NCBI GenBank assembly: GCA_944319815.1 | Contig: CALUEX010000048.1 | Span: 124,001-188,000 of the forward strand | Reading direction: 5' to 3' | Source: an uncultured Prevotella sp. | Lineage (GTDB): Bacteria > Bacteroidota > Bacteroidia > Bacteroidales > Bacteroidaceae | Length of the DNA: 64,000 bases | In this document: in pieces, positions 1 to 27,404 of the stretch | How the letters are laid out: each line of letters opens with the position of its first letter | Numbering within the stretch: the first letter of the stretch is position 1 | Translations under genes and position numbers: made by a program | Notes under the pieces: generated by a model | Told to the model about the DNA's origin: nothing | Database searches by the model: none | What the model saw: the letters and a program-made list of their open reading frames with translations, nothing else

Positions 1-678
<678 letters not shown>

Positions 679-810
679 TTATTTTAAAGGGTTAAAATAA
701 TTCCTTAAACTTTAAACTAAATACCTATATATTTATGCCATAAAAGCGGCCACACTTGGCTCTACAATCAACCATAACCAGACCGCCCGTAGGCTTTATC
801 TTTTCGAGCG

Positions 811-840
811 CAAAATTACAAAAAATATTTTATTACCAAA
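811..840 (-). promoter_or_regulatory. Bacteroidetes promoter of gap
   Basis: On the minus strand TTTG (837-840) is followed after 18 bp by TAATTTTG (811-818), matching the Bacteroidetes -33/-7 pattern. It predicts a start of transcription near 803 and a leader of about 130 nt before gap. Confidence 0.6.
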
Positions 841-967
841 GTAACTTTCCATATTAAATTATATAAAAAAGCCGTTACACCTCAAAACCTGACAATGCTT
901 TAGCGCTGATTAGTACGATATTGGAACATGGAGTTTACAAAACGAACGGGCGTAATACAATCGTTCA

Positions 968-1786
968 TTAGGCGTTTTCGGCGCTACTTGCCTTGCCGCT
1001 ATGTTTTACGACCCGTATACTCACTTCATACAGCAGGTAAAGTGGAAGTGTAACCAGCAACAGGCTCAATACGTCCTGCCCCGGCGTAATCATTGCCGCC
1101 ACCGTCAATATTGCGAGAAAGGCGTGTTTACGGTACCTGGCAAGTGCGACTGCATTTATTATCCCCATTTTACCCAAGATAAAAGAGATTATCGGCAACT
1201 GGAACACGACTCCCATCAACAGCGTTAGCGTCGTGAATGTTGACACATAGCTGTCGAGCGTTATCGTGCTCTCCACCCTATCGGACACGCTGTACGTGCC
1301 GAGAAACCTGAACGAGACGGGGAACAGCAAATAATAACTGACCAGCACACCTACCATAAAAAGGATGTAGACAGCGACAATGGCCTTAACCGAATACTTG
1401 CGCTCGTTCCCGATTAATGCAGGCGACACGAAACGGAACAATTCATATAGAATATACGGCGAGGCAACGAGCAGACCGATATAGACAGATGTTGTCAAAT
1501 GGGTCATAAACTGGCTTGACAGGTCAGTTGCTATCAACTTCACATGAAATTCAGGGAAACGGAAATCAGTCATGCCGACAGCCCTCGCAATACGCTCTAT
1601 CCATGAATAAGTGACAAAATCCCACTCGCTCGGGGCGAGCAGCACACGCCAAGTAACGTCCTTGAAACAAAAAACTATTACGGCAGCCGTGCAGCCCACC
1701 CCTAGCACGCGGAACACCATCCTGCGTAGCACTTCAAGATGCCCGCCGAAGGTCATCAAGTCGTCATTGCGGCCTTTGCGTCCCAT
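968..1786 (-). CDS. tatC: Sec-independent (twin-arginine) translocase subunit TatC
   Basis: TatC is the multispanning receptor of the twin-arginine pathway, which exports folded proteins across the inner membrane. The protein shows the N-terminal [10 protein letters not shown] signature (the TatC H-x-E-L-R-x-R region), then about six hydrophobic segments, including [20 protein letters not shown], typical of the family. The frame is open further upstream, but that extension overlaps tatA deeply and is rich in Arg/Lys. I place the start at 1786 (MGRKGRNDD), which has AAGG upstream and overlaps tatA by only 23 bp; the product is then 272 aa, a normal length. It is the last gene of the CXXX-peptide operon, which suggests a dedicated export role. 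No terminator is evident downstream. Confidence 0.93.
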
Positions 1787-2042
1787 CTTTTGCCTTGTTG
1801 ACGTCGTCGCCATTGGCCGTTGCGGCATCCGTCTTGGCTTTGTCGCCATCGCCTTGAATGTCGTCGTTTTCTGTGTTAATGGAGTTTTCCACGTCGTTCA
1901 CGCCTTTCTTGAACTCCTTTACTCCCTGGCCGAGGCCACGCATCATTTCCGGCAGTTTCTTGCCTCCGAACAGAAGTAATGCAATTCCGCCGATGAGCAA
2001 AAGCTCAGTAGTGCCGATAAATAATAGCTGTGTAGTCATCAT
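1764..2042 (-). CDS. tatA: Twin-arginine translocase pore subunit TatA/E
   Basis: A 92-residue protein with one N-terminal transmembrane helix ([14 protein letters not shown]), the diagnostic hinge [16 protein letters not shown], then an amphipathic helix and a charged, disordered tail ([17 protein letters not shown]). TatA oligomerises to form the Tat translocation path. It starts MM; the first ATG at 2042 overlaps the stop of the upstream helper gene as ATGA, which supports translational coupling. It also overlaps tatC. No tatB is present, as is usual in Bacteroidetes. Being embedded in a peptide-maturation operon is unusual and is discussed in the findings. Confidence 0.95.
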
Positions 2043-2314
2043 TGCCTAACTAAATAAATGTCACAAGTGTCGAAATTGATTTCCCAGTTGCCGTCATCGG
2101 CACTTTCCCATTTATACTTGTCACTCATCCTGTCCCACCAAGCCTGGAACTTGGTGCCTGTTGAACCGAGGTCAGTTACCAACTTCTCGTACAGTTCGGC
2201 GTTGTCTGCCGTCACAATCTTGGCCAACTCGTTCAGGCCGTTGCGGCGCTCGAACAATGCCTGTATTTCGTTACGTTCTTCGGGCGTAACACTCCCTACT
2301 AATTTCTTTACCAT
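2039..2314 (-). CDS. Small CXXX-repeat peptide modification system protein
   Basis: A 91-aa cytoplasmic-looking protein without signal peptide or membrane segment. It is helical in its first half ([19 protein letters not shown]) and ends with an aromatic, acidic region ([20 protein letters not shown]) and a single Cys near the C-terminus. I recognise it as the type annotated as 'CXXX repeat peptide modification system protein', always found beside the radical SAM genes; no biochemical function is known to me. It overlaps the upstream maturase by 7 bp and the downstream tatA by 4 bp, so it is co-translated with both. A precursor-binding or chaperone role is only a guess. Confidence 0.75.
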
Positions 2315-3249
2315 TCTTTTCTTACTTCAAAGGGGTCTAAATATTCTATTTTCCTTATTTCCGTACCGGGCATGAACGTGCCGTGTTGCCTTATGGCGGC
2401 AAGGAGACTGCGCGAGGCGTTGCGTTCCAAGTGCGCCACTACGCATTGTTCGTGCGACGGTGTGTTCACCTCAAGCGTGGTCTTGCGGTTAAGCCACACG
2501 CAGCGGCGGCACTGGTATGCGTCGCACTTGCGGCAGAGCGGAGCGTGGTCGAGCCTGTACAGCTGGGCGTTCTTTATGTCGAGGCCGCCGTCAAGGCTGC
2601 CTACGGCGTAGCCGTCGTCGCACAGGTAGAACGCGGGGCAGACATAAAACTTGCTGTCTGGGGCGAGCGTTATGTTGGTCTCCCCTGCCCCGCAGTTGTT
2701 CATCTTGTCGAGCATCATGCGGTCGGTCAGGATGTTCAGCTGCGGCGACTTGCCCCCGGCATACATCCGTTCAACGTCTTTTGCCAGACAGGCCAGCACG
2801 TCTTTGTATTTGGCGAAGTCATCATCCGTAAATGTTTCCACGTCCGTCAGCACAACGTTCAGGCGTGTGGCATTTTCCAACAAATTCACGATGGCGTCAT
2901 GCCCTGCGAACATTTCCTGCTTGGTTAACCGCAAAACGTAAGTTCCACCGTTACTGATAGTTACGCCTTTTTCTTCAACAATACCGTCAATAACGGTTAC
3001 GTCTGCGCCGTCGGCCTTGCTTGCAGGCTTTATTTTGCTGTGGTCGATGCTTTCTATTACTGCCGCATATTCTTCGGGCAGGTCATAGTCGGGATAGACA
3101 AACTGTATGTTCAGGTTCTCCTTCATGCCGTAAAGTATGCCGGCCTTCAACGTTTCTAACGGCATCAGGCGGCGTTCCTTGCGGTTGTTGCCGTAATGGC
3201 AGAACGACACGGCCGTGTCGTCAAGCAATATAATAAGGTATTGTACCAT
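2308..3249 (-). CDS. CXXX-repeat peptide maturase: SPASM-like protein lacking the radical SAM CX3CX2C motif
   Basis: The 313-aa product resembles the proteins annotated 'CXXX repeat peptide maturase'. Its N-terminal two thirds has alternating strands and helices, as in a radical SAM barrel, but has no CX3CX2C. The C-terminal third is Cys-rich: NNCGAGETNI, FYVCPAFYLC, then LCRKCDAYQCRRC and EQCVVAHL, the spacing expected of auxiliary 4Fe-4S binding in SPASM/Twitch domains. It lies 6 bp after the true radical SAM gene and overlaps the helper gene, so it is likely a partner subunit that binds the precursor or relays electrons. The fold assignment is inference; the absence of the canonical motif is seen directly. 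Confidence 0.75.
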   Translation of the reverse strand: MVQYLIILLDDTAVSFCHYGNNRKERRLMPLETLKAGILYGMKENLNIQFVYPDYDLPEEYAAVIESIDHSKIKPASKADGADVTVIDGIVEEKGVTISNGGTYVLRLTKQEMFAGHDAIVNLLENATRLNVVLTDVETFTDDDFAKYKDVLACLAKDVERMYAGGKSPQLNILTDRMMLDKMNNCGAGETNITLAPDSKFYVCPAFYLCDDGYAVGSLDGGLDIKNAQLYRLDHAPLCRKCDAYQCRRCVWLNRKTTLEVNTPSHEQCVVAHLERNASRSLLAAIRQHGTFMPGTEIRKIEYLDPFEVRKEW

Positions 3250-3255
3250 CTCCGT

Positions 3256-4467
3256 TCAGCATTTTGCAGGGTTCAACTTCGGTTTGTTCGTCTCGTACTC
3301 CTCGCGCGCCTCCTCAAGCTCCAACTTGCGGAACAGCTTGTTCCAGTAATAGTTGTTGGCCCTTACGCGCGCCTTGTGCATCAGGCAGATGGCCGTGGAG
3401 CGTTGGTAGATTGTTGGCGTGTCGGCAGCGTCGTAGTTCTCGCCCTGACACCAGGCGCAGCCCTCTGCCACCTCGCAGTCGATGCACTTCTGCGGCGACT
3501 GCGTGCAGCGGTCGAGCGTAAGGAAGGGGCGCAGCTTGTTTTTGTCTATGCCGTCACGTATGTTGCCTATTATCCACGCCTTCTTCTCGCGCAAGGAGTA
3601 TTGGGCGAAGCGCGTGCAGGGATAGAAGTTGCCCTCGGCGTCTACGGCGAGCATCTTGCCAGCCCCGCACCAGTTCTGGTTCTGCGTAACGCAGTCAAGC
3701 GGCTTGCCGAGATGGTCGGAGAAGAACGAACAGGCATAGTCCTTGTAATAACCGCCGTCGATTATGGCGTCGGCCAGTTGCATCAGCTGGTCTTCAAACA
3801 GGAGGTCGTCGTCTTTTTTCCACACGTCCTCGAAAACGCAGTTGATGTTTACCTCGTGTATGCCGAGACTGTACAAGTGGAGTACGCTCTCCTTTATGTA
3901 AGGCAGGTCCTCACTGCTGATTGTCACCTTTGTCCCGGCATTCGGGAACTGCTCAAGCCACAGCGGAATGTTGCGCACCACGTCAGCGTAAGAGCCGCGC
4001 CCGTCGCCCTTGTACACGCGGTTTAGGTCATGTTTCTTCTCCGTTCCGTCGATGGTTATGCCGATGGAGAGGTGCTCGCGGTTCTTCTTTATGAACCGCT
4101 GCACCTTGTCCGTGTGGTAGTTAATGCCGTTCGTTGAGAACGAGAAGCGATAAGAGTTAAACCAGTGGTGGTTACGCCTGAACATCTCCACCTTCAGGTA
4201 GTCGCAGATTCTGTCTATCAGGTCTATTTCCAAGAACGGCTCGCCGCCGATGAAGTCCCAAACGACGCTCTCCTCGCGCATATCCTCCTCGTGGTCGAGG
4301 ATATAGTCAATAGCCTGTTTTGCTACCTCCCAAGGCATCCGCTCTTTCGAGTTCTTCCCTACGAGGTAGCAATATTTACAGGCAAGCTGGCAGTCCTTCG
4401 TGACAATGAAAGTAATGCTTTTTGCAATACCCGACTGCCATCCTTTGTCATTTTCTTTTATTCTCAT
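3256..4467 (-). CDS. Radical SAM/SPASM peptide maturase, CXXX-repeat target family
   Basis: A 403-aa radical SAM enzyme. CQLACKYC (Cys26, Cys30, Cys33) binds the SAM-cleaving 4Fe-4S cluster, followed by the GGEPF motif near residue 74. The C-terminal SPASM region has NWCGAGK, FYPCTRF, DRCTQSPQKCIDCEVAEGCAWC and AICLMHKA, enough cysteines for two auxiliary clusters. Such enzymes install thioether or C-C crosslinks on ribosomal peptides. The two multi-cysteine precursors in the same operon are the obvious substrates, and thioether (sactipeptide-like or ranthipeptide-like) chemistry at the periodic cysteines is the natural inference. It follows the lipoprotein gene by 7 bp and precedes the SPASM-like partner by 6 bp. 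Confidence 0.93.
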   Translation of the reverse strand: MRIKENDKGWQSGIAKSITFIVTKDCQLACKYCYLVGKNSKERMPWEVAKQAIDYILDHEEDMREESVVWDFIGGEPFLEIDLIDRICDYLKVEMFRRNHHWFNSYRFSFSTNGINYHTDKVQRFIKKNREHLSIGITIDGTEKKHDLNRVYKGDGRGSYADVVRNIPLWLEQFPNAGTKVTISSEDLPYIKESVLHLYSLGIHEVNINCVFEDVWKKDDDLLFEDQLMQLADAIIDGGYYKDYACSFFSDHLGKPLDCVTQNQNWCGAGKMLAVDAEGNFYPCTRFAQYSLREKKAWIIGNIRDGIDKNKLRPFLTLDRCTQSPQKCIDCEVAEGCAWCQGENYDAADTPTIYQRSTAICLMHKARVRANNYYWNKLFRKLELEEAREEYETNKPKLNPAKC

Positions 4468-4474
4468 AATTCAC

Positions 4475-4927
4475 TTAACGAGTTACAATCGTGTATGTTA
4501 CGGGTGTCGTGCATGAATATCGGCTATTCCGACATTTCATGTAATAATATATGTACGTTCTTACGCCATAACCTGCATGGGATTTGTCGAAAGTAGTTTT
4601 TGTCTTTGTACTTGCATAGACCCTCATGGATTCCGCCTCGGTTAAGTCTGACCTTGACGGAGTGCTCGACGGTTTTGAAGAATATGCTTTCCAATACACC
4701 GTACAACTCATGTTCTCCGTCTTGTCGCCACCATTGTTAAACCTTGCACGCAAGGAGAAACCATCCAAGTCTGTAGTAGTCAGGTACTTGTCAAGCGAAG
4801 GTTCTCCTATTGTAGTTATATCTACATCTATGTCTGTTGAATCTTCTATTCTTATTTCGTCTTTCTCGCAACTTGTCATTAAGAATAGCACAAAACAAAA
4901 ACTTAATATATTTATTGCCTTTTTCAT
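4475..4927 (-). CDS. Putative lipoprotein of the CXXX-peptide operon
   Basis: I place the start at 4927 (MKKAINILSF), giving 150 aa, because it creates a lipoprotein signal: a Lys-rich start, a hydrophobic core and the lipobox LMTSC with Cys20. CEKDE follows the lipid Cys, an acidic patch like the surface-export signal of Bacteroidetes lipoproteins. The mature part is probably all-beta, with a C-terminal stretch of Tyr, Thr and three Cys (MSCTV, MKCRNSRYSC). I do not recognise a family. It sits 5 bp after the large precursor and 7 bp before the radical SAM gene, so it is surely co-expressed. It could anchor, protect or bind the exported peptide. No CXXX periodicity is present. Confidence 0.75.
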   Translation of the reverse strand: MKKAINILSFCFVLFLMTSCEKDEIRIEDSTDIDVDITTIGEPSLDKYLTTTDLDGFSLRARFNNGGDKTENMSCTVYWKAYSSKPSSTPSRSDLTEAESMRVYASTKTKTTFDKSHAGYGVRTYIYYYMKCRNSRYSCTTPVTYTIVTR

Positions 4928-4932
4928 AATTA

Positions 4933-6156
4933 TTATTTTGAACCATTTACACATGAAGATTGGCAGTTTGTGCTGCAAGCGTAACTGCAGTCGTGGTAGC
5001 AACGATTATAACACGTTTGTGCGCAACCCGAACAGTTTGTGCCGGCACTGACATACCTACAACTTCCTCCGCACGAGTCATTGCAAGTTCCGTAGCAATG
5101 GCTGTCGCAAGTTGCAGCACAGTTATACTCACACCTTTCTTTGCAACCGTTTGAACAAGTAGAAGAACAACCGGAACAAGAGCTACTGCTCGTTGAATTG
5201 TTAGCGCAATTTGAACTGCAACCACCACCACAAGTTGTTGGGCTTGCAGTTCCATCAGTCACGGGGCGTACACTCTCTTTACTATCTTGAATCGGAGTAT
5301 AATAATTTGTTTTCCCCGTGGAAAGATAATAATGGCTAAAAACATAGGCGGACGTTGATTTATAATTGCTTGATGTTAGACGTTCAAATGTTCCTGTCCA
5401 AAAAGAGGCAGACCTTCCAACGCCCAACCCCTCATCAACAAGTATGCTACCAGCTGCTGGCAAAAAGATGCTGCGCCCATTAATTTTACTTTTAAATTTA
5501 ATGCCTTTAACACCTTCATACGTGAACCATTCGCACGAGCAATTTTCAAGCAATTCGTCAAGTTCGTCTTTTGTCGGAAGTTTCCAATAATTACCCCACC
5601 TTTTTGTCGCAGGGTCAAAAGATGTTCCAGAAATGGAGTCTCCCGTTCCAAATCCATTTTCCAAAAGTTCTTTTTTTACAGAAGAATAGTTATCAATACT
5701 TCCTTCAACAAATTCCAGATATGAACCATACTGCTGTGGTCTTGATGCCCCTACATTATACCGTGCCCACTTTACGCTCAAGCCTAAATCAACATATTCA
5801 TACCCACCTATTTCTCCTGTTGCTTTTGAAATTTCGTCTTCATCCCCAGAGTCAGAATTGTTACTTGAATTGTTTTTGCAGGTATTAGAACAAGAAGTAT
5901 CACATCCTCCCGTGCAGTTATTGGCACAATTTGAGCACGTTGAAGACGACGATTGCCCTACACACGAAGACGAACAATCTGAAGCACAAGTGCCCGAACA
6001 GTCCATACATCCTGTAATATCATCGTCGTCACCGCCTCCACAACTTGTAAAGATGGAAGGCACTACTATCGCAGCCACAATAGGCAAAGTTCCCTTTGCT
6101 GCTTTCTTAAAGAACTCCCGACGATGCAGGAGTTCTCCGCTGTCATTTGCCTTCAT
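4933..6156 (-). CDS. Chimeric CXXX-repeat radical SAM target: Tat leader, lipobox, two Cys-repeat regions flanking a FISUMP/DUF1566-like domain
   Basis: 407 aa. The leader HRREFFKKAAKGTLPIVAAI matches the twin-arginine consensus, ends in the lipobox SIFTSC (Cys39) and is followed by GGGDDDD, like a surface-export signal. Residues 50-93 hold two runs of Cys every fourth residue, each opened by CxxC (C50/53 to 65; C74/77 to 93). Residues about 117-305 form a globular domain with YEYVDLGLSVKWA, NYWKLPTKDELDELL and ESVRPV, the signature of Bacteroidetes FISUMP/DUF1566-type domains. Residues 309-402 carry 22 further Cys at period four in three runs. Known CXXX-repeat targets are small peptides, so an embedded globular domain is odd. 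It lies 14 bp after the short precursor. It may be a displayed adhesin or structural protein whose arms are crosslinked. Confidence 0.85.
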   Translation of the reverse strand: MKANDSGELLHRREFFKKAAKGTLPIVAAIVVPSIFTSCGGGDDDDITGCMDCSGTCASDCSSSCVGQSSSSTCSNCANNCTGGCDTSCSNTCKNNSSNNSDSGDEDEISKATGEIGGYEYVDLGLSVKWARYNVGASRPQQYGSYLEFVEGSIDNYSSVKKELLENGFGTGDSISGTSFDPATKRWGNYWKLPTKDELDELLENCSCEWFTYEGVKGIKFKSKINGRSIFLPAAGSILVDEGLGVGRSASFWTGTFERLTSSNYKSTSAYVFSHYYLSTGKTNYYTPIQDSKESVRPVTDGTASPTTCGGGCSSNCANNSTSSSSCSGCSSTCSNGCKERCEYNCAATCDSHCYGTCNDSCGGSCRYVSAGTNCSGCAQTCYNRCYHDCSYACSTNCQSSCVNGSK

Positions 6157-6170
6157 GTAAAACTATATTG

Positions 6171-6494
6171 TCAACAACAATAAGCATAGCACTGAATTTG
6201 ACAGCCTGAAGCACAAGTTGCCGTACAATCATATCTACAGCCACCTTCACAACCGCTACGACAGCTATTACACAATCTTGCACAGGAAGAAGAACAATCA
6301 TAGGAACATATCCCCGTACAGCCAGAACCACAACCAACAGAACACATATACTGGCAACTCATTGGTTCTTTAGCCTGCGTTAACATCGGTACATTGGTAA
6401 ACAATACTGCACCTAATATTGGCAACACCCCCTTTACAGCTTTCTTAAAGAATTCCCTACGCGATTGGAGTTCTTCTTTTTTCTTGTTTCCCAT
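6171..6494 (-). CDS. CXXX-repeat radical SAM target peptide (RiPP precursor) with Tat-like leader
   Basis: 107 aa and first gene of the operon. The leader has SRREFFKKA (twin Arg at 12-13), a hydrophobic stretch GVLPILGAVLF and a possible signal peptidase site near AKEP. The core from Cys47 to the C-terminus has 17 Cys: eight at strict period four (47 to 75), a one-residue slip (CNSC), then eight more at period four (78 to 106) and a final Cys107. Gly, Ser, Ala, Tyr and Asp fill the gaps. This fits the family annotated as 'CXXX repeat radical SAM target'. It shares its leader motif (RREFFKKAxKGxLPI) with the following precursor, so both are probably recognised by the same maturase and exported by the same Tat system. 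Confidence 0.9.
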   Translation of the reverse strand: MGNKKKEELQSRREFFKKAVKGVLPILGAVLFTNVPMLTQAKEPMSCQYMCSVGCGSGCTGICSYDCSSSCARLCNSCRSGCEGGCRYDCTATCASGCQIQCYAYCC

Positions 6495-6564
6495 AATAAT
6501 AAAAGTTTAATTGGCCAACAGAACTCCCTAAGTTAGGCCGTAAATAATATAGTTTTGGATAAGA

Positions 6565-6850
6565 TACTAAAAAGGGCGTGAGAGTCCTACTTCTCGCCTA
6601 TCCCGACTTTCAGGCTCTCGCATTGCCTCTCTCCCAGGATAAGCAACGCAGTTAGCCCACGCCGTGACATATTATAAAAGGTATGGATACAACTTACCCA
6701 TACGAATATAATACATCCCACGTGGACGTTCCCGTTGCCGCACCTTCCGAGAGAGTTCAAATTTGCGAGATTTGAAAGTCAGAAGATAACGTCCGTAAAC
6801 GTCCTTTACCAGTAAATAACCCACAAGCCCTTACAACTGGACTAACTGAG
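6565..6850 (-). ncRNA. Structured 5' leader RNA of the CXXX-peptide operon, copy A, ending in a terminator-like stem
   Basis: Seen on the minus strand. A short stem (6799-6802 with 6789-6792), a 7-bp hairpin with loop CTCGCAA (TTCAAAT 6770-6776 with ATTTGAA 6756-6762), and a long terminal stem. In that stem GGCGTGGG (6656-6663) can pair with the CTCACGCC arm near 6574-6581, enclosing TGCGTTGC/GCAATGCG (6643-6650 with 6619-6626). A run of T follows the last stem. The same elements, with compensatory changes, occur at 45466-45771. It reads as a cis-regulatory leader with possible transcription attenuation; the ligand or signal is unknown. Confidence 0.7.
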
Positions 6851-6856
6851 TCGGCA

Positions 6857-6887
6857 CAAAGTTACGATTTTTTATGTTAAACGCAAA
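6857..6887 (-). promoter_or_regulatory. Promoter of the CXXX-peptide/tat operon
   Basis: On the minus strand TTTG (6884-6887), 19 bp, then TAACTTTG (6857-6864): an exact Bacteroidetes promoter. Transcription should start near 6850, giving a leader of about 355 nt before the first precursor. Confidence 0.75.
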
Positions 6888-7311
6888 GAATTTAACGTGA
6901 AAAACATAAATAAATTTCATGACGAATTTTATGATGAAAAATATGCAATGACGGCGTGACATTATGCTTGCATTCAGAAAATCCGCAGCAATCGGTAGGG
7001 ACACACGGCTCGTGTGTACGTCATAATCAAGGAATTACGCCAATGGCACGGGACAGCCCGTTGCGCCAGATTTGCAATCCGCCACAACGGTCAGGCTGCC
7101 CCTACTTTGTGGGTGAGAGGATTCCAGCTTAGTCAACGGCAATTAGGATGTTTGCCGGTATTCATATATTTATAAGCACCTTAGACTATATACATATGGC
7201 GAAATGGCGCAAAAACAAGGAACATTAAAAGCGGGCAACACAATAATTCTTTGACGCAAGAACTTTGGCTTATATTGCGCTGATTTTCAACCAATTAGGC
7301 AAATGCCATGT

Positions 7312-7378
7312 TTTGCGCCGTAAAAGGACACCTTTTACAACGTGATAAGCCACAAACGAGCCTGTAAAAGGGTACAAA
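7312..7378. repeat. Dispersed intergenic repeat of AAAAGG/CCTTTT words, copy 1
   Basis: The stretch GCCGTAAAAGGACACC...TTTTACAACGTGATAAG...GTAAAAGGGTAC resembles stretches near 26806-26850, 45317-45352 and 63586-63632. All combine a (G)CAAAAGG or GTAAAAGG word, a TTTTAC or CTTTTAC word and an AAAAGGGCA- or AAAAGGGTA-like word in gene-free DNA. Confidence 0.4.
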
Positions 7379-7512
7379 ATAGGTTCATCCGCAAACCTGT
7401 TGGATGAAAAAACTTTCACAGTAAAATCAAACATAAATTGAATACATCCACTGTAGGGACATAATTTAACGTGAGTTCGGCATAATGCAATATCTCATAA
7501 ATATGTGGGATA

Positions 7513-7633
7513 CTTTTTGTAGGGACATAATTTATTATGTACGAACGTTCTGAAAGAACGTATTTAATACGTCTTTGCTACCTTATACACCTCTTCGCGG
7601 CGTTCGGACATAATAAATTATGTCCCTACAAAG
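7513..7633. repeat. MITE-like inverted repeat element, copy 1
   Basis: Perfect 25-bp inverted arms (7516-7540 and 7608-7632) with the core GTAGGGACATAATTTATTAT flank a short AT-rich interior. The same arm core and a related interior occur at 63322-63436. A degraded further copy (about 7655-7780) and a lone end (about 7453-7466) lie alongside, so elements of this family have accumulated here. No coding capacity. Confidence 0.7.
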
Positions 7634-7921
7634 TGTAATTGTTTATACCGAACTCGCGTTAATTTATTATGTCCGCACGCCGCGGAGAGGCGTATAAGTA
7701 GGCTATGTCAATAAAAACGTTCTTCCTGAACTAAGGACACGATTGCGTCTTAATGGAGTAATCTTCAAAATTATGTCCCTACAGAGGGGTAATTTCCCAT
7801 ACCAATGTGGCATTAACTTTATACCGAACTGACATTAAAATATGGATGATAAAAACGAGCAATAATTGCAAAATATAAAATATACTTTGATAAAAATGAA
7901 CAAAGTCAGGTCTTTGGGAAG

Positions 7922-7966
7922 TGTATCAAAATGGAGTTAACTCCCTATTAACTCCATTTTGATACA
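7922..7966. terminator. Perfect 19-bp hairpin downstream of fbp
   Basis: TGTATCAAAATGGAGTTAA (7922-7940), a 7-nt spacer, and its exact reverse complement (7948-7966). It begins 37 bp beyond the fbp stop codon. No T-tract follows on the minus strand, so it may act as an RNA-stabilising 3' hairpin or a protein site rather than a classical terminator. Confidence 0.5.
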
Positions 7967-8002
7967 TCCTCGGATTGGGGCTTTACCCAAATTCGTCAGG
8001 CA

Positions 8003-9988
8003 TCACCGCCGCTCCTTAATGAAGCCGTGACGGTAGGCGTAAAGCAATTTTTCGAGGTCGGCTATTTGCCGCTTCAGCTCACGACCGATGTCAGTGTCGG
8101 CCACGAGCATCCTGTGGGCAGACATTTCCACTATCTGTGTGGTACTCTTAATGTCAGAACCGCGCAAGATTGCGTCCTCCGTGCTTGTGAACGGTTCGTG
8201 CTGAACGAGCTGGAAGCCCCGACTGTGGTAAACAAGGGTGTATCCGGCGATGCCCGTCTCCTTGTGATAGGCCTGGGAGAAACCGCCGTCGATGACCATG
8301 AGCTTGCCACCTGCTTTTATTGGGTTCTCGCCACTGGCTGCATGGACGGGCACATGGCCGTTGATGATGTGGCGGTTAGGGCCGGTTACGCCGTAGGCAT
8401 CAAGTATGACATCGCACACACTACCATCATCACGCAACTTAAAATAGTTGCCTTTTTCCTCCTTGTACGTTTCCTTGTCCTTGAGGAAATAACGCTCGAA
8501 AGTTGCCATCTTCGACTTGTCGAACAATACGGAGTCGCGCCCACACCAAAGATACAGGAAATAGTCTGTGGCAAAACGCTTTTCACTTGGGTCTGTATCG
8601 GACTGAAAAGCACTGCGGATGATACGGTCTACACGGTCCATAAGTTCGCGCCCCGCATACTTTTGCCCTTCGCCGAGTTCAACATCCTTGAGACTTCCGT
8701 CTGCATTGAGCGGCACGGAGGCATGGAAAAGCAGGTTGTCATTGATTATGGTGTAAAGCGAGCCATGGCTAAGCATTAGGCGAATATGCTTGTGCAGCTT
8801 CTCATTGACGGTAAACGAATGGGTAAGACGGTCAACAAGCACGGCTTCTTCGGGCGTAAGAGCGTAAGGGTCGGCAGGATTAACCGTCGGGAAATGGCAA
8901 CTTTTCATCTCGTATTCCTTATCGCCTACGCTACAAAGAGCACGGTTAAAGTCGATATTATTCAACAGCAAACGGTCTTCCATGCCCCATTCCGGATGGC
9001 GGGCAATGACGGCAGCCTCAACCTTGAACTGGATTACGGTTATGGCTTTGTGCATCTGGGCTGTAAGCCGACGTGTCTTGTCGTCAATCTCGGCACTGCC
9101 GCCAGTGGTGTTAGGCATGAACTCTGCACATGGGTCGTCGGCATAGTGTTCCATGGCGAACGTAGCCAAAGGCACAAGATTGATGCCATAACCTTCTTCG
9201 AGAGTTGTCAAGTTGGCGTAACGCAATGACAGGCGGATGACATTGCATACGCAGGCTTTGTTACCTGCACAGGCGCCCATCCAAAGTATGTCATGATTGC
9301 CCCACTGTATGTCCCAGTTGTGATAGCCGCCGAGAATGTCCATAATGATATGAGCCCCCGGGCCACGGTCGTAGACATCGCCAAGGATATGCAACAGGTC
9401 AATGGCAAGCCGCTGTATGACATGGGCTATGGCGATAATAAAATCGTCTGCACGCCCGATTGTTATGATTGTGCTGATGATTTCATTGACGTAGGCCGCC
9501 TTGTCTACGTCATCGGTGCGTTCGTGGAGCAATTCCTCTATAATATACGAGAAATCCTCTGGCAACGATTTCCTCACCTTGGAGCGTGTGTACTTGCTTG
9601 AAACATCACGACAGACGCGCACAAGCTGGTGGATGGTGATATGATACCAATCGTTAAGGTCTGGTTCGGCAGCCTTGACAAGCTCTAATTTTTCTTCTGG
9701 ATAATAGATAAGCGTACAGAGTTCCTTCTTCTCAGCCTCACGTAACTCGTTGCCGAAAATCTCGTTAACCTTACGCTTGATGTTGCCGGATGCATTCTTC
9801 AACACGTGCTGGAAAGACTTGTACTCACCGTGCAAGTCCGCCAAGAAATGCTCCGTACCCTTTGGCAAATTCAGTATTGCCTGTAAATTAATTATCTCCG
9901 TACTTGCATCAGCAATATTGGGGAATGACTGTGCCAACAAACGCAAATACCTTATGTCACCCTCTATTTCACTTGATGATGTTTTCAT
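8003..9988 (-). CDS. fbp: Fructose-1,6-bisphosphatase, class III
   Basis: The 661-aa length and sequence fit the Firmicutes/Bacteroidetes class III enzyme, a metallophosphoesterase that hydrolyses fructose-1,6-bisphosphate to fructose-6-phosphate in gluconeogenesis. Metal-binding blocks are visible: FLADLHGEYKSF, GDVYDRGPGAH and WGNHDILWMGA, with further His-containing motifs (NGHVPVHAASGENP, LVYHSRGFQLVQHEPF) near the C-terminus. The start at 9988 overlaps the stop of the upstream glycosyltransferase as ATGA, so it is translationally coupled to it. A perfect hairpin lies just after the stop codon. Placing a central carbon enzyme behind glycosyltransferases seems fortuitous, but it ends the long minus-strand run. 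Confidence 0.96.
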   Translation of the reverse strand: MKTSSSEIEGDIRYLRLLAQSFPNIADASTEIINLQAILNLPKGTEHFLADLHGEYKSFQHVLKNASGNIKRKVNEIFGNELREAEKKELCTLIYYPEEKLELVKAAEPDLNDWYHITIHQLVRVCRDVSSKYTRSKVRKSLPEDFSYIIEELLHERTDDVDKAAYVNEIISTIITIGRADDFIIAIAHVIQRLAIDLLHILGDVYDRGPGAHIIMDILGGYHNWDIQWGNHDILWMGACAGNKACVCNVIRLSLRYANLTTLEEGYGINLVPLATFAMEHYADDPCAEFMPNTTGGSAEIDDKTRRLTAQMHKAITVIQFKVEAAVIARHPEWGMEDRLLLNNIDFNRALCSVGDKEYEMKSCHFPTVNPADPYALTPEEAVLVDRLTHSFTVNEKLHKHIRLMLSHGSLYTIINDNLLFHASVPLNADGSLKDVELGEGQKYAGRELMDRVDRIIRSAFQSDTDPSEKRFATDYFLYLWCGRDSVLFDKSKMATFERYFLKDKETYKEEKGNYFKLRDDGSVCDVILDAYGVTGPNRHIINGHVPVHAASGENPIKAGGKLMVIDGGFSQAYHKETGIAGYTLVYHSRGFQLVQHEPFTSTEDAILRGSDIKSTTQIVEMSAHRMLVADTDIGRELKRQIADLEKLLYAYRHGFIKERR

Positions 9989-11238
9989 TGTATGTCAGAT
10001 TTATATAGTTTAACCTTTAACTGTTTTGCCTCCTTGCCGTCATGCGGCTCAGCAAACATGAAGCCTTCGCCAAGAGCGTAACGTTCTTTCATTATTTGGA
10101 GTAACCCCACGGCGTAGCGCGCCAAACCAACCTTACGCAATGCTGTCTCGACCGCAGCCTCGTCATAATCAGTAAAACGCAGGGCAAGACACACCTCCAC
10201 AAAATCGGCTCTACGAACTGCCCCATACCGTGCCTTAAGAATAAACCGCACTAACACTTCGCACAAGCTAAACTCCGTGGATTGTAAATCACAAGCGGAC
10301 TTCACCTTGGCAACCAAGCGCCCTGATTTACGTTCAACAAAATCGCGAGCTACATACGTATGCAAAGAGAACCGTTCTACCTTGTCCACCTCCAGCGGCG
10401 GCACGTTCACACCGGTAATATTTATGCCACGCATAACATGGCCAAGGACACCTTGGTCGGCAGAATGAAGCATTATCCGACGCCAAGCATTGGCATCAAG
10501 CTGTCGCATACGTAAAATGACGTCATCAGGAACTGCCACGTCAAGACGTCCATTAAAAGCTCCAGCCATTATAAGTCCGTCTTCTACAAGCAACTCGTCG
10601 GCCGTCATTTTCGGGAAAGGCTCACTGTCAGCAACTTTACGGTAAAGCTGCAACAACACGTCTGTCGTGAAAGCGGCACCGGCATCATCCGACGAGCTGA
10701 AAATATCTGTCATGACAACCCTGTCGTTAAGACTGCGCTTGGCTTTCCGGCCTGGATACCATCCAAACGTTGAAATGTCAGCTTCCTCTTGAGCACACAC
10801 AGCGTGCAATGCTCCTGCCCGCATTACCATATTACGCTGGAACAAAATATATTTCGGGAGCTTTGAAAACAAATAACACTTGGAAAAATGCCAAGGCTCA
10901 AGACCGCGCCAGGGTGTAAGCACTGTAGGAATACGCATCTTGTGGCATTCACGGAAAAGCCTGGCTGCCTGGAAATTCCAACACGTATGAATATGAACAA
11001 CGTCGGGCCTGACAACAGACAACACCCTACGCAACCTGCCATGCCATACTAATAAGGAAAGCCCTTGGGGACAAACATGGATGGCGGCCTCCCCAAGATT
11101 CACGTTGCAGGTAACAGACGTTAACACGTGTACCTCTGCACGCCCAGCCATATTCTTGACCAAACCAAGACAGTAGTTCAAAAGATAGGAACCTGAAGCT
11201 GCCTTAAGATTAGGTATGTAATGCAGCACTTTCATCAC
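9985..11238 (-). CDS. Glycosyltransferase family 4-like protein with an atypical C-terminal half
   Basis: 417 aa. The N-terminal about 170 residues look like the acceptor domain of a GT-B glycosyltransferase: MKVLHYIPNLKAASGSYLLNY, RPDVVHIHTCWNFQAARL and RIPTVLTPWRGLEPW. The second half has no recognisable nucleotide-sugar domain (no E-x7-E block); instead it is helical and charged, with repeated VEVCLALRF/VLVRFILKARY-like segments. It may therefore be an inactive, regulatory or divergent transferase. It starts at MM (11238 or 11235), 4 bp after the family 2 transferase, and overlaps fbp by 4 bp. A role in surface polysaccharide or glycolipid synthesis is likely from the neighbour. Confidence 0.75.
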   Translation of the reverse strand: MMKVLHYIPNLKAASGSYLLNYCLGLVKNMAGRAEVHVLTSVTCNVNLGEAAIHVCPQGLSLLVWHGRLRRVLSVVRPDVVHIHTCWNFQAARLFRECHKMRIPTVLTPWRGLEPWHFSKCYLFSKLPKYILFQRNMVMRAGALHAVCAQEEADISTFGWYPGRKAKRSLNDRVVMTDIFSSSDDAGAAFTTDVLLQLYRKVADSEPFPKMTADELLVEDGLIMAGAFNGRLDVAVPDDVILRMRQLDANAWRRIMLHSADQGVLGHVMRGINITGVNVPPLEVDKVERFSLHTYVARDFVERKSGRLVAKVKSACDLQSTEFSLCEVLVRFILKARYGAVRRADFVEVCLALRFTDYDEAAVETALRKVGLARYAVGLLQIMKERYALGEGFMFAEPHDGKEAKQLKVKLYKSDIQ

Positions 11239-11242
11239 AGAC

Positions 11243-12385
11243 TCATGATTTATGGCTTATAAATTCATTTTTGTCTGACAACTTATGCAACAAAGTGTAC
11301 TTGAGGTTGTGACACACAAGACGCACCTCAAAAGGTACGGCCAACCATACGGGCACTCTTACGCCAAAAACTTCCATAATATGCCTGGCGGCAAGTGTCC
11401 TGAACAACACAGGTAAAACTATAGCCACCACGGCAAACGGCAATATGACCCACCTCGAGGCTAATACAGCCCACACCAACGCAGCGGTTGATGCCAATAA
11501 ACAAACGCCAAGCGAAAGTACATCAGAAACAAATGCCGCACAATGTCGAAATCCTCGACTAAGATGACGACGTGTCTCAACGTGAAAGACATTCATGTCA
11601 TGCCATTTCTTTAATGACGGAGCTTCCTCTACAATGTAACTATCAGGAACAGTTGCCACCGCAACATTGGTGCCATCGGAATACTTGTTAACCAAGAACT
11701 CAAATTCTCCACGAAGATACTTGAGGTTGCCAAGAAAACCGTTACCGGCCATAAATATACTCTTCCTAAACATTAGATTGCATCCAGCCATTCCGTAAGC
11801 GCGTGCCCTGACTGCATCATGAAAATATGAACAGGAACGATGAAGGCGATAGAACCTTTTGAAACTACTTGCTTCATCAGCAAAGCCACTGTAACCTATA
11901 ACCATATCAATTCCATTACGGCAATGTGACGACATCTGCCTGAGCCATTGCCCAGAAACCGGACAGGCCGCTGCATCAGTGAGCAAAATCCATTCATTCT
12001 TTGCAGCCTTAACGCCTAAGGTTATCGCAAGTTTCCTCCTGCTCATATATCGAGACGAGTCCGGCACAAAAGTTGTGTATAAAAGAGGATTATCATTAAA
12101 CGACTTCAATACGTCAGCCGTTCCGTCTTCATCCCGGTCTACAACAACAATAACCTCGTATCCTGCAGGATAGTCTTGCGAAAGGTATACAGGCAGATTA
12201 GCCGAAAGGGCGTCTGCATTATTGTCAGATACCACTATCACCGAAATAGGCTTGCCTGCGTCAACATTTTCACCTTCCCCGTCATCACTCACAACATTCC
12301 TGCGCAATGTATCGGATAATGAAGACCACACGGTCAACAAAACCAATAACACGCTAACAGTTATTGCAATACTATCAAAAAACAT
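11243..12385 (-). CDS. Membrane-anchored glycosyltransferase family 2
   Basis: 380 aa with an N-terminal membrane anchor (IAITVSVLLVLLTVW), a GT-A domain and two or more C-terminal membrane segments (LGVCLLASTAALVWAVLA, VILPFAVVAIVLPVLF). The catalytic domain shows ISVIVVSDNN, YEVIVVVDRDEDGTADVL and WILLTDAAACPV in place of the usual D-x-D region, then GMAGCNLMFRKS and GEFEFLVNKY. It likely transfers a sugar from a nucleotide donor to a lipid or polysaccharide acceptor at the cytoplasmic membrane. It is followed after 4 bp by the GT4-like gene, and the two probably work together. Confidence 0.85.
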   Translation of the reverse strand: MFFDSIAITVSVLLVLLTVWSSLSDTLRRNVVSDDGEGENVDAGKPISVIVVSDNNADALSANLPVYLSQDYPAGYEVIVVVDRDEDGTADVLKSFNDNPLLYTTFVPDSSRYMSRRKLAITLGVKAAKNEWILLTDAAACPVSGQWLRQMSSHCRNGIDMVIGYSGFADEASSFKRFYRLHRSCSYFHDAVRARAYGMAGCNLMFRKSIFMAGNGFLGNLKYLRGEFEFLVNKYSDGTNVAVATVPDSYIVEEAPSLKKWHDMNVFHVETRRHLSRGFRHCAAFVSDVLSLGVCLLASTAALVWAVLASRWVILPFAVVAIVLPVLFRTLAARHIMEVFGVRVPVWLAVPFEVRLVCHNLKYTLLHKLSDKNEFISHKS

Positions 12386-27207: not shown

Positions 27208-27295
27208 GGAAGTTTGGGTGAGTGGCTGAAACCAGCAGTTTGCTAAACTGCCGTGCGAGTTTATCGTACCGGGGGTTCGAATCCCCCAGCTTCCG
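27208..27295 (+). tRNA. tRNA-Ser (anticodon GCU)
   Basis: An 88-nt class II tRNA. GGAAGTT pairs with AGCTTCC; the anticodon loop TTTGCTAA gives GCU. It has a long variable arm and the T-arm GGGGGTTCGAATCCCCC. The discriminator is G, and the 3' CCA is not encoded. Confidence 0.95.
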
Positions 27296-27329
27296 CATAC
27301 ATTATGGAGCGTAACAAAATATTCAATAT

Positions 27330-27404
27330 GGTGGATTCATCTAACGGTTAGGATACAAGATTCTCAATCTTGGCATAGGGGTTCGATTCCCCTATCCACT
27401 ACCA
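27330..27404 (+). tRNA. tRNA-Glu (anticodon CUC)
   Basis: Acceptor GGTGGAT pairs with ATCCACT. The anticodon stem-loop CAAGA-TTCTCAA-TCTTG gives CUC, and the T-arm is AGGGGTTCGATTCCCCT. The CCA end is encoded (27402-27404), unlike in the neighbouring tRNA-Ser. Confidence 0.93.

Follow-up and report, generated by a model that had tools for sequence, protein, structure and literature searches.

A CXXX-repeat radical SAM peptide operon of Prevotella with its own tatA-tatC pair, and relatives in which exporter and leader change together

In a 64,000-nt stretch of DNA from an uncultured Prevotella sp. (contig CALUEX010000048.1; hereafter the window), eight consecutive minus-strand genes lie at 968-6494, spaced by at most 14 bp or overlapping. 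In order, they encode precursor 1 and precursor 2, whose cores repeat cysteine every fourth residue (CXXX repeats), a lipoprotein, a radical S-adenosylmethionine (SAM)/SPASM peptide maturase of family TIGR04115, its TIGR04119 partner, the small TIGR04116 helper, and the TatA and TatC components of a twin-arginine translocation (Tat) system (Table 1). Gaps of 14, 5, 7 and 6 bp separate precursor 1 from precursor 2, precursor 2 from the lipoprotein (its ATG at 4927), the lipoprotein from the radical SAM enzyme and that enzyme from TIGR04119, respectively; TIGR04119 and TIGR04116 overlap by 7 bp, TIGR04116 and tatA by 4 bp, and tatA overlaps tatC, whose start is uncertain, with candidates further downstream than 1849, e.g. 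around 1786 or 1756. The eight packed genes had been listed in an initial annotation made from the letters alone, and are confirmed by their coordinates and by NCBIfam and Pfam searches, which name six of the eight (precursor 1 below cut-off) and in which both Tat families score above cut-off. We propose that the locus combines the modification machinery of a radical SAM peptide with a minimal Tat translocase (TatAC) encoded in the same operon, a reading to which we give, from sequence comparison, a probability of about three in four.

Table 1. Genes and leader segments of the operon, in coordinates of the 64,000-nt window.
Feature	Position	Strand	Characteristics
Precursor 1	6171..6494	-	107 aa, CXXX-repeat core, soluble type (TQA ahead of core)
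Precursor 1 Tat-type leader	6372..6494	-	SRREFFKK, LP-containing hydrophobic stretch, likely cleavage after TQA
Precursor 2	4933..6156	-	407 aa: two CXXX arms flanking a Cys-poor middle domain
Precursor 2 Tat-type leader	6043..6156	-	Ends in lipobox FTS/C (slash, cleavage point), then GGGDDDD
Lipoprotein	4475..4927	-	150 aa; ordinary signal without RR (by eye); putative, no function assigned
Radical SAM/SPASM peptide maturase TIGR04115	3256..4467	-	665.7 bits, cut-off 350 (NCBIfam)
TIGR04119 partner	2308..3249	-	SPASM-like, invariant Cys, without CX3CX2C; 240.4 bits, cut-off 150
TIGR04116 small helper	2039..2314	-	91 aa; 103.6 bits, cut-off 50
tatA	1764..2042	-	TIGR01411 65.9 bits (cut-off 53.9); PF02416 E 1.7e-15
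tatC	968..1849	-	PF00902 194.5 bits; TIGR00945 150 bits (cut-off 132.7); operon-type clade

Both precursors carry twin-arginine (RR) leaders, which read SRREFFKKA and HRREFFKKA, respectively, as the initial annotation had quoted them. Across 94 loci (loci and genomes are labeled L and G, respectively, followed by a number), an RR-x-hydrophobic motif lies within the first 75 residues of 166 of 176 non-overlapping open reading frames (ORFs) with Cys repeats; two more ORFs (L095, L105) have RRKFFK/RREFFK beyond residue 75, behind an over-long ORF start, which raises the count to 168/176. Among the eight without RR, L044 provides the sole clear intact precursor, the motif is disturbed in L073 at -1016, and visual inspection suggests that six are fragments or chance ORFs. 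The 166 include at least one non-precursor (L073 at -6015), and in two cases the pattern caught an upstream RR (L080 at -481, where the true motif follows it, and L065 at -1675, where the true motif starts ...LQSR). All six Arg codons occur at both RR positions, which indicates that the motif is maintained at the protein level. Scoring of the leaders as Tat signals, proposed with the initial annotation, came out in its favor: an approximate TATFIND-like rule was passed by 158 of the 166 RR precursors versus 11 of 963 control ORFs (one of the 11 being itself a precursor), a comparison that favors the precursors somewhat, as these were trimmed to 16 residues before RR on account of their uncertain starts and the controls were left untrimmed. 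The best 16-residue mean hydropathy after RR has a median of 1.89 in the 166 Tat-type precursors, the ninth-lowest value being 1.55.

The leaders share two motifs, [SN]RRxFFK and, ~12 residues past the second Arg, [LI]P. Phe occupies position +4 in 93% of 161 CXXX leaders versus one of 18 ordinary Tat signals (Leu in 13/18), and Pro occupies +13 in 91% of the 161 versus 0/18 ordinary signals with Pro at +12 to +14, the 18 having been drawn from eight operon-bearing genomes and including one doubtful match (L204). These differences suggest that the leader combines Tat information with something peculiar to these peptides. Leaders of modified peptides often double as enzyme recognition sites, and the RR might itself be part of the site recognized by the modifying enzyme, with export by the general secretory (Sec) or another route and tatAC linked for some other reason, a proposal that the extra leader content favors. 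We nevertheless consider it very improbable, since the RR precedes an h-region of signal-peptide type, an AxA-like site or a lipobox closes 149 of the 162 unique leaders, and five loci linked to ATP-binding cassette (ABC) exporters, described below, retain the TIGR04115 enzyme while lacking both RR and any comparably hydrophobic stretch (LP persists in three of the five). Sec export with an RR present by chance was also held unlikely, given the conservation of the motif, its codon variety and the RR-less precursors of the ABC-linked loci.

As to their ends, 106 of the 162 unique leaders are AxA-like, 43 have a lipobox and 13 have neither, although some of the 13 resemble lipoboxes by eye; the window holds one leader of each kind, AxA-like in precursor 1 and lipobox in precursor 2. 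In 33 of the 43 lipobox leaders, the lipid Cys is followed within six residues by at least two acids. The Bacteroidota lipoprotein export signal is given as K-(D/E)2 in the relevant passage of PubMed Central (PMC) article PMC5080379, and the acids after the precursor 2 Cys come without the K of that consensus. Some CXXX products may, by this resemblance, be surface lipoproteins.

Linkage of tatA-tatC to these genes is widespread. Of 393 Bacteroidales genomes sampled evenly across the order, 12 have TIGR04115 above its cut-off, and tatA-tatC follows TIGR04116 in nine of the 12, the window's genome counted in. A second set comprised 80 named loci, out of 404 relatives found, that are the nearest to the window; nine end too early for tat scoring, and in 54 of the remaining 71 both genes follow TIGR04116, at a median distance of 26.5 bp from it to tatA. 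The two counts, the second of which retains L040/L082 (the same contig, by length and position), L069/L116 (one genome) and the nearly identical L091/L094, as do the leader counts, bear out the adjacency to be expected across Bacteroidales from the initial annotation. Linkage confined to the window's own genome, which had been named at the outset, jointly with another full tat locus elsewhere, as the case that would speak against a dedicated exporter, was rejected on the same counts; the other half of that case does hold, the genome having a second full tat locus. Two members of the set, L061 and L062, are titled Clostridia/Clostridium, although their enzymes share 83 and 82% identity, respectively, with that of the window; they may be misbinned and were counted as loci only.

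Clustering of 1069 neighboring ORFs from the 80 loci yielded few same-strand families present in at least 10 loci: the enzyme (77 loci), precursors (74), TIGR04119 (73), TIGR04116 (54), TatC (50), TatA (11, short genes having been mostly filtered out) and a helix-turn-helix-like small protein (10). The latter, so classed by eye, is ~110 aa long and is encoded ~3.7 kb upstream of the enzyme in its 10/80 loci. On the enzyme tree the Tat-linked label requires 22 changes compared with 29 after shuffling, i.e. it is scattered, which suggests repeated loss or gain of the linked pair.

TatCs from the operons separate, for the most part, from the remaining TatCs. In a tree of 108 sequences (65 from operons, 43 others), the operon label changes five times versus a shuffled mean of 34, with 0/500 shufflings as low, and 53 operon TatCs fall into one branch with 99% support in a Shimodaira-Hasegawa-like approximate likelihood ratio test, as obtained by a quick tree method. 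The second tatA-tatC of the window's genome lies elsewhere (C1); its TatC is placed among the others, and a protein with an ordinary Tat signal is encoded two genes on from it. Consequently, "dedicated", as applied to the operon exporter, would rest on phylogeny and linkage and not on its being the sole Tat. Presence of more than one tatC was seen in ~5% of species according to the pertinent section of PMC3827258.

A search for TatC in 61 genomes covered 33 of the 54 tat-linked loci and all 17 unlinked ones. Among 42 genomes with a Tat-linked operon, 14 have the operon TatC only, as checked by position for genomes derived from the loci and from coordinates for G383, G378 and G039; completeness figures are known for three of these genomes (100, 97 and 88%), and some missing second TatCs may thus be gaps. 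In 15 of the 42, CXXX operons account for every TatC found, the fifteenth being Xylanibacter caecicola (G440; L124, L145, L146), whose three CXXX-tat operons hold all three TatCs found there. Ordinary Tat signals, as detected by TIGR01409, are absent from seven of the 14 operon-only genomes, occur only below cut-off in two and exceed it in five; because this model misses CXXX leaders (it has no match in the window), its zeros speak of ordinary Tat signals only.

It could be argued from these data that the operon tatAC simply encodes another general-purpose Tat translocase, one that came to reside among these genes. The five operon-only genomes with ordinary Tat signals above cut-off indicate that the operon Tat is not exclusive, and two TatC matches also occur without the operon, namely in eight of the 12 two-TatC genomes among 198, some of which may represent one gene in two pieces. 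We regard this alternative as unlikely in view of the separate grouping of operon TatCs, the lack of any ordinary Tat-signal match in seven of the 14 genomes and the L065 locus, where a precursor gene sits between tatA and tatC. The operon Tat is tied to CXXX cargo; exclusivity for that cargo is not claimed. The residue after the N-terminal HL of TatC is Glu in 60 of 65 operon sequences and Asp in 34 of 43 others; in the alignment this position is presumably shifted by one from the known signal-binding residue, and the difference was not used as evidence. A candidate orphan tat locus with a precursor (L172, G401) was dropped because the matching protein resembles just the Cys-poor middle domain of precursor 2.

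The strongest evidence for Tat export comes from distant relatives in which exporter and leader change together, amounting, as far as can be judged from the genes, to a natural swap. An ABC exporter adjoins the enzyme in five loci. In L044 (Bacteroidales; 6576-12088) it is accompanied by a QhpE-like subtilisin protease (111 bits, cut-off 165), a fused TIGR04115-TIGR04119 enzyme, TIGR04116 and a TIGR04118-like precursor (33.4 bits, cut-off 35), and the locus is, by its gene content, a hybrid of qhp-type export and CXXX modification. In L182-L184, from another Bacteroidota family, the exporter follows TIGR04119 (profile matches), and no TIGR04116 was detected in searches with the window's protein. 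In L178, i.e. 1-10346 of the conjugative Anaerococcus prevotii plasmid pAPRE01, an ABC transporter follows the fused enzyme; this CXXX system adjoins a class III lanthipeptide cluster. Having too few Cys to pass the Cys-repeat ORF filter, those encoded at L178 and L182-L184 were collected separately from the other precursors. RR is absent from all five ABC-linked precursors (56-94 aa), whose best 16-residue mean hydropathy ahead of the repeats is -1.0 to 0.72, well apart from the Tat-type median. The initial annotation had held that such systems otherwise use an ABC exporter with a leader peptidase: the exporter is indeed found in some distant relatives, and a protease was identified beside it only in L044.

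The missing RR is not for want of a Tat system, as tatC is present in G037, G481, G570 and G785, the genomes of the four Bacteroidota loci among the five, to which this check was confined. Conversely, the five loci with neither exporter adjoining (L041, L042, L180, L181, L205) keep RR leaders, and their genomes (G389, G259, G480, G698, G932) have tatC elsewhere. A tblastn search with four ABC exporters over 98 loci, L184 included, located a further one only in L070, ~4.3 kb upstream of the enzyme and not adjacent. The sequence K-T-L-P-G is kept in the L182-L184 precursors despite the missing RR, and a clear LP is absent from L044 and L178; that LP stays where RR goes suggests, without being proof, that it serves the enzyme. 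On the enzyme tree the ABC label needs three changes, which fall on long branches, so the count of independent swaps is uncertain.

The precursor cores and the enzymes point to what may be exported. Neighboring Cys are exactly four residues apart in 84.7% of 3304 pairs, and within the core regions of the 166 RR precursors the figure is 86.3%, compared with 10.4% after shuffling. The residues between repeat Cys are chiefly Ser, Gly and Thr, with acids rare, and a single precursor may have up to 62 Cys. In 12 aligned sequences, the TIGR04115 enzyme has an invariant CX3CX2C (C26, C30, C33) plus further Cys. Among solved structures, 5wgg (E 7.8e-32), identified as CteB in part of PMC7876137, is the one relative that reaches E 1e-10 or better, and the enzyme scores 204 bits against the PapB model NF047865 (under the cut-off of 340) and 119.9 bits, also under cut-off, against the SCIFF maturase model. 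TIGR04119 has invariant Cys columns and a weak match to the C-terminal part of 5wgg (E 0.00037), and thus resembles a SPASM-type domain that lacks the motif for SAM binding; it might be a degenerate radical SAM fold. For TIGR04116, comparison with solved structures gave nothing convincing (best E 0.22). Fusions of TIGR04115 with TIGR04119 (L044, L178) and of TIGR04119 with TIGR04116 (L180 and, by coordinates, L181) support a single modification complex.

PapB acts on Cys-X3-Asp/Glu motifs and forms thioethers, as set out in a portion of PMC9413430; family membership leads us to infer that CXXX cores are crosslinked, most likely by thioethers. The very high Cys content would also suit metal- or cluster-loaded proteins with free thiols, exported by Tat since loading is cytoplasmic and acted on in some other way by the radical SAM enzyme; Tat typically transports cofactor proteins, according to the text consulted from PMC6708511. 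That TIGR04115 resembles thioether-forming enzymes and that the cores are rich in Ser/Gly/Thr makes this, in our estimation, quite improbable.

Taken together, these data support the interpretation first offered for the locus, cytoplasmic crosslinking followed by Tat export, and suggest the following pathway. The precursor would be made with a leader bearing two signals, the Tat motif [SN]RRxFFK and the [LI]P motif. TIGR04115, with TIGR04119 and TIGR04116, would then modify the Cys-every-fourth core while it is still cytoplasmic, in all likelihood forming thioether crosslinks, to yield a compact folded cargo that the operon TatAC would export. Finally, ordinary signal peptidases would remove the leader, either after AxA, giving a soluble periplasmic product, or at the lipobox, giving a lipoprotein often with post-Cys acids that resemble the Bacteroidota surface-export signal. 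We lean, with modest confidence, toward the broader view that crosslinked peptides and long Cys-repeat proteins leave the cell folded through a private Tat, partly as surface lipoproteins, that the same core has elsewhere been refitted to an ABC exporter by a leader change, and that the signals for export and for enzyme recognition are separable.

Several observations weigh against the Tat reading, beyond the non-exclusivity of the operon Tat and the trimming that tilts the TATFIND-like comparison. The 80 nearest relatives are an uneven sample. At 17 of the 71 scored loci no tatA-tatC pair adjoins though the leaders retain RR, which means that a general Tat must be able to serve them; L102 and L110 among these retain tatA alone, and the genomes of L075 and L091 have another CXXX operon with tatAC. 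TatC is present somewhere in 16 of the 17 genomes of unlinked loci, and in the other, G398, which has RR leaders, the genome search found none. Outside Bacteroidales, linkage was seen in 0/6 Bacteroidota loci with enough sequence (L180-L184, L205), and the Anaerococcus plasmid is likewise not tat-linked. In addition, the RR-less L182 precursor has a 19-residue uncharged run, weakly hydrophobic.

NCBIfam describes CXXX-repeat systems (TIGR04114, 04115, 04116, 04117, 04119, and TIGR04118, met in L044) with the same enzyme, partner, helper and precursor families; the model titles name no exporter, whereas the loci compared here show a linked Tat pair in the majority of Bacteroidales members and, in some other members, an ABC exporter. 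The PapB/freyrasin ranthipeptide system is alike in having a radical SAM/SPASM maturase related to TIGR04115. It differs in its Cys-X3-Asp/Glu motifs: in the CXXX cores Cys recurs at four-residue spacing, X3 is mostly Ser/Thr/Gly and acids are few, and the window operon has in addition a Tat leader and two extra partner proteins. In the quinohemoprotein amine dehydrogenase (qhp) system, radical SAM thioether crosslinking takes place in the cytoplasm ahead of export, as related in an excerpt of PMC7876137, a modification that is predicted for the window operon; the qhp leader is removed by QhpE and export is by the ABC protein QhpF, and the window operon is without either. In Bacillus subtilis, the minimal TatAdCd is co-expressed with a single known cargo, PhoD, beside a second TatAC (PMC6708511, in the text consulted), whereas the cargo proposed here is a Cys-repeat peptide family with its own modifying enzymes. 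Tat phage display of nisin, mentioned in a passage of PMC11048544 citing Hetrick et al., is a case of Tat carrying a modified peptide, in an engineered artificial fusion and not a natural pathway.

According to parts of a 2023 survey of Bacteroidales clusters for ribosomally synthesized and post-translationally modified peptides (PMC10352776), all but two curated clusters have peptidase-containing ABC transporters; term searches in the text at hand found neither "Tat" nor "CXXX" in it, nor "Tat" in the corresponding text of two reviews (PMC8326336, PMC8172795). Among the papers listed from searches of the open-licence PMC literature, judged mostly by titles and abstract openings, none pairs Tat with a radical SAM peptide, in agreement with the initial statement that such a dedicated exporter is, as far as known, undescribed; TIGR04115, 04116, 04117, 04119 and "CXXX repeat peptide" are mentioned nowhere in that literature. 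The component families were already known; new, on this coverage, are the proposed natural, co-inherited Tat exporter for radical SAM peptides and a lineage-level exporter swap.

If this is correct, modified peptides would have a natural export route that tolerates folding and crosslinks and dispenses with an ABC exporter or protease specific to the peptide, which would explain how long crosslinked repeats exit the cell. It would add a rare further case of a Tat system tied to one cargo class and might be usable for displaying crosslinked peptides on gut bacteria, and the Tat/ABC swap would allow the leader parts needed for export to be told cleanly from those needed by the enzyme.

Among the minor features of the operon, the precursors fit the TIGR04117 model poorly: precursor 1 scores 40.8 bits (cut-off 50) and precursor 2 scores 7.3 bits (E 4.8), the CXXX repeat being plain nonetheless, and of eight relatives scanned only that of L112 exceeds the cut-off (51.7). 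The middle of precursor 2, which includes its largest Cys gap (113 residues), has a weak PF07603 match (E 0.0073, under cut-off), and the long precursors of L051, L102 and L110 share its plan of a Cys-poor middle between two CXXX arms. The lipoprotein, listed at the outset as an operon member, is present in the window and yet is not a conserved part of the system, with relatives in 3/80 loci; it had no NCBIfam or Pfam match above cut-off. Elsewhere in the window, we located a Bacteroidetes FopS-family small RNA (RF04319, 24220-24291, minus strand, 74 bits), tandem tRNA-Ser(gct) and tRNA-Glu(ctc) genes (27208-27404, plus strand) and, at the window's end, a cobalamin riboswitch (RF00174, 63760-63949, plus strand, 98.2 bits).

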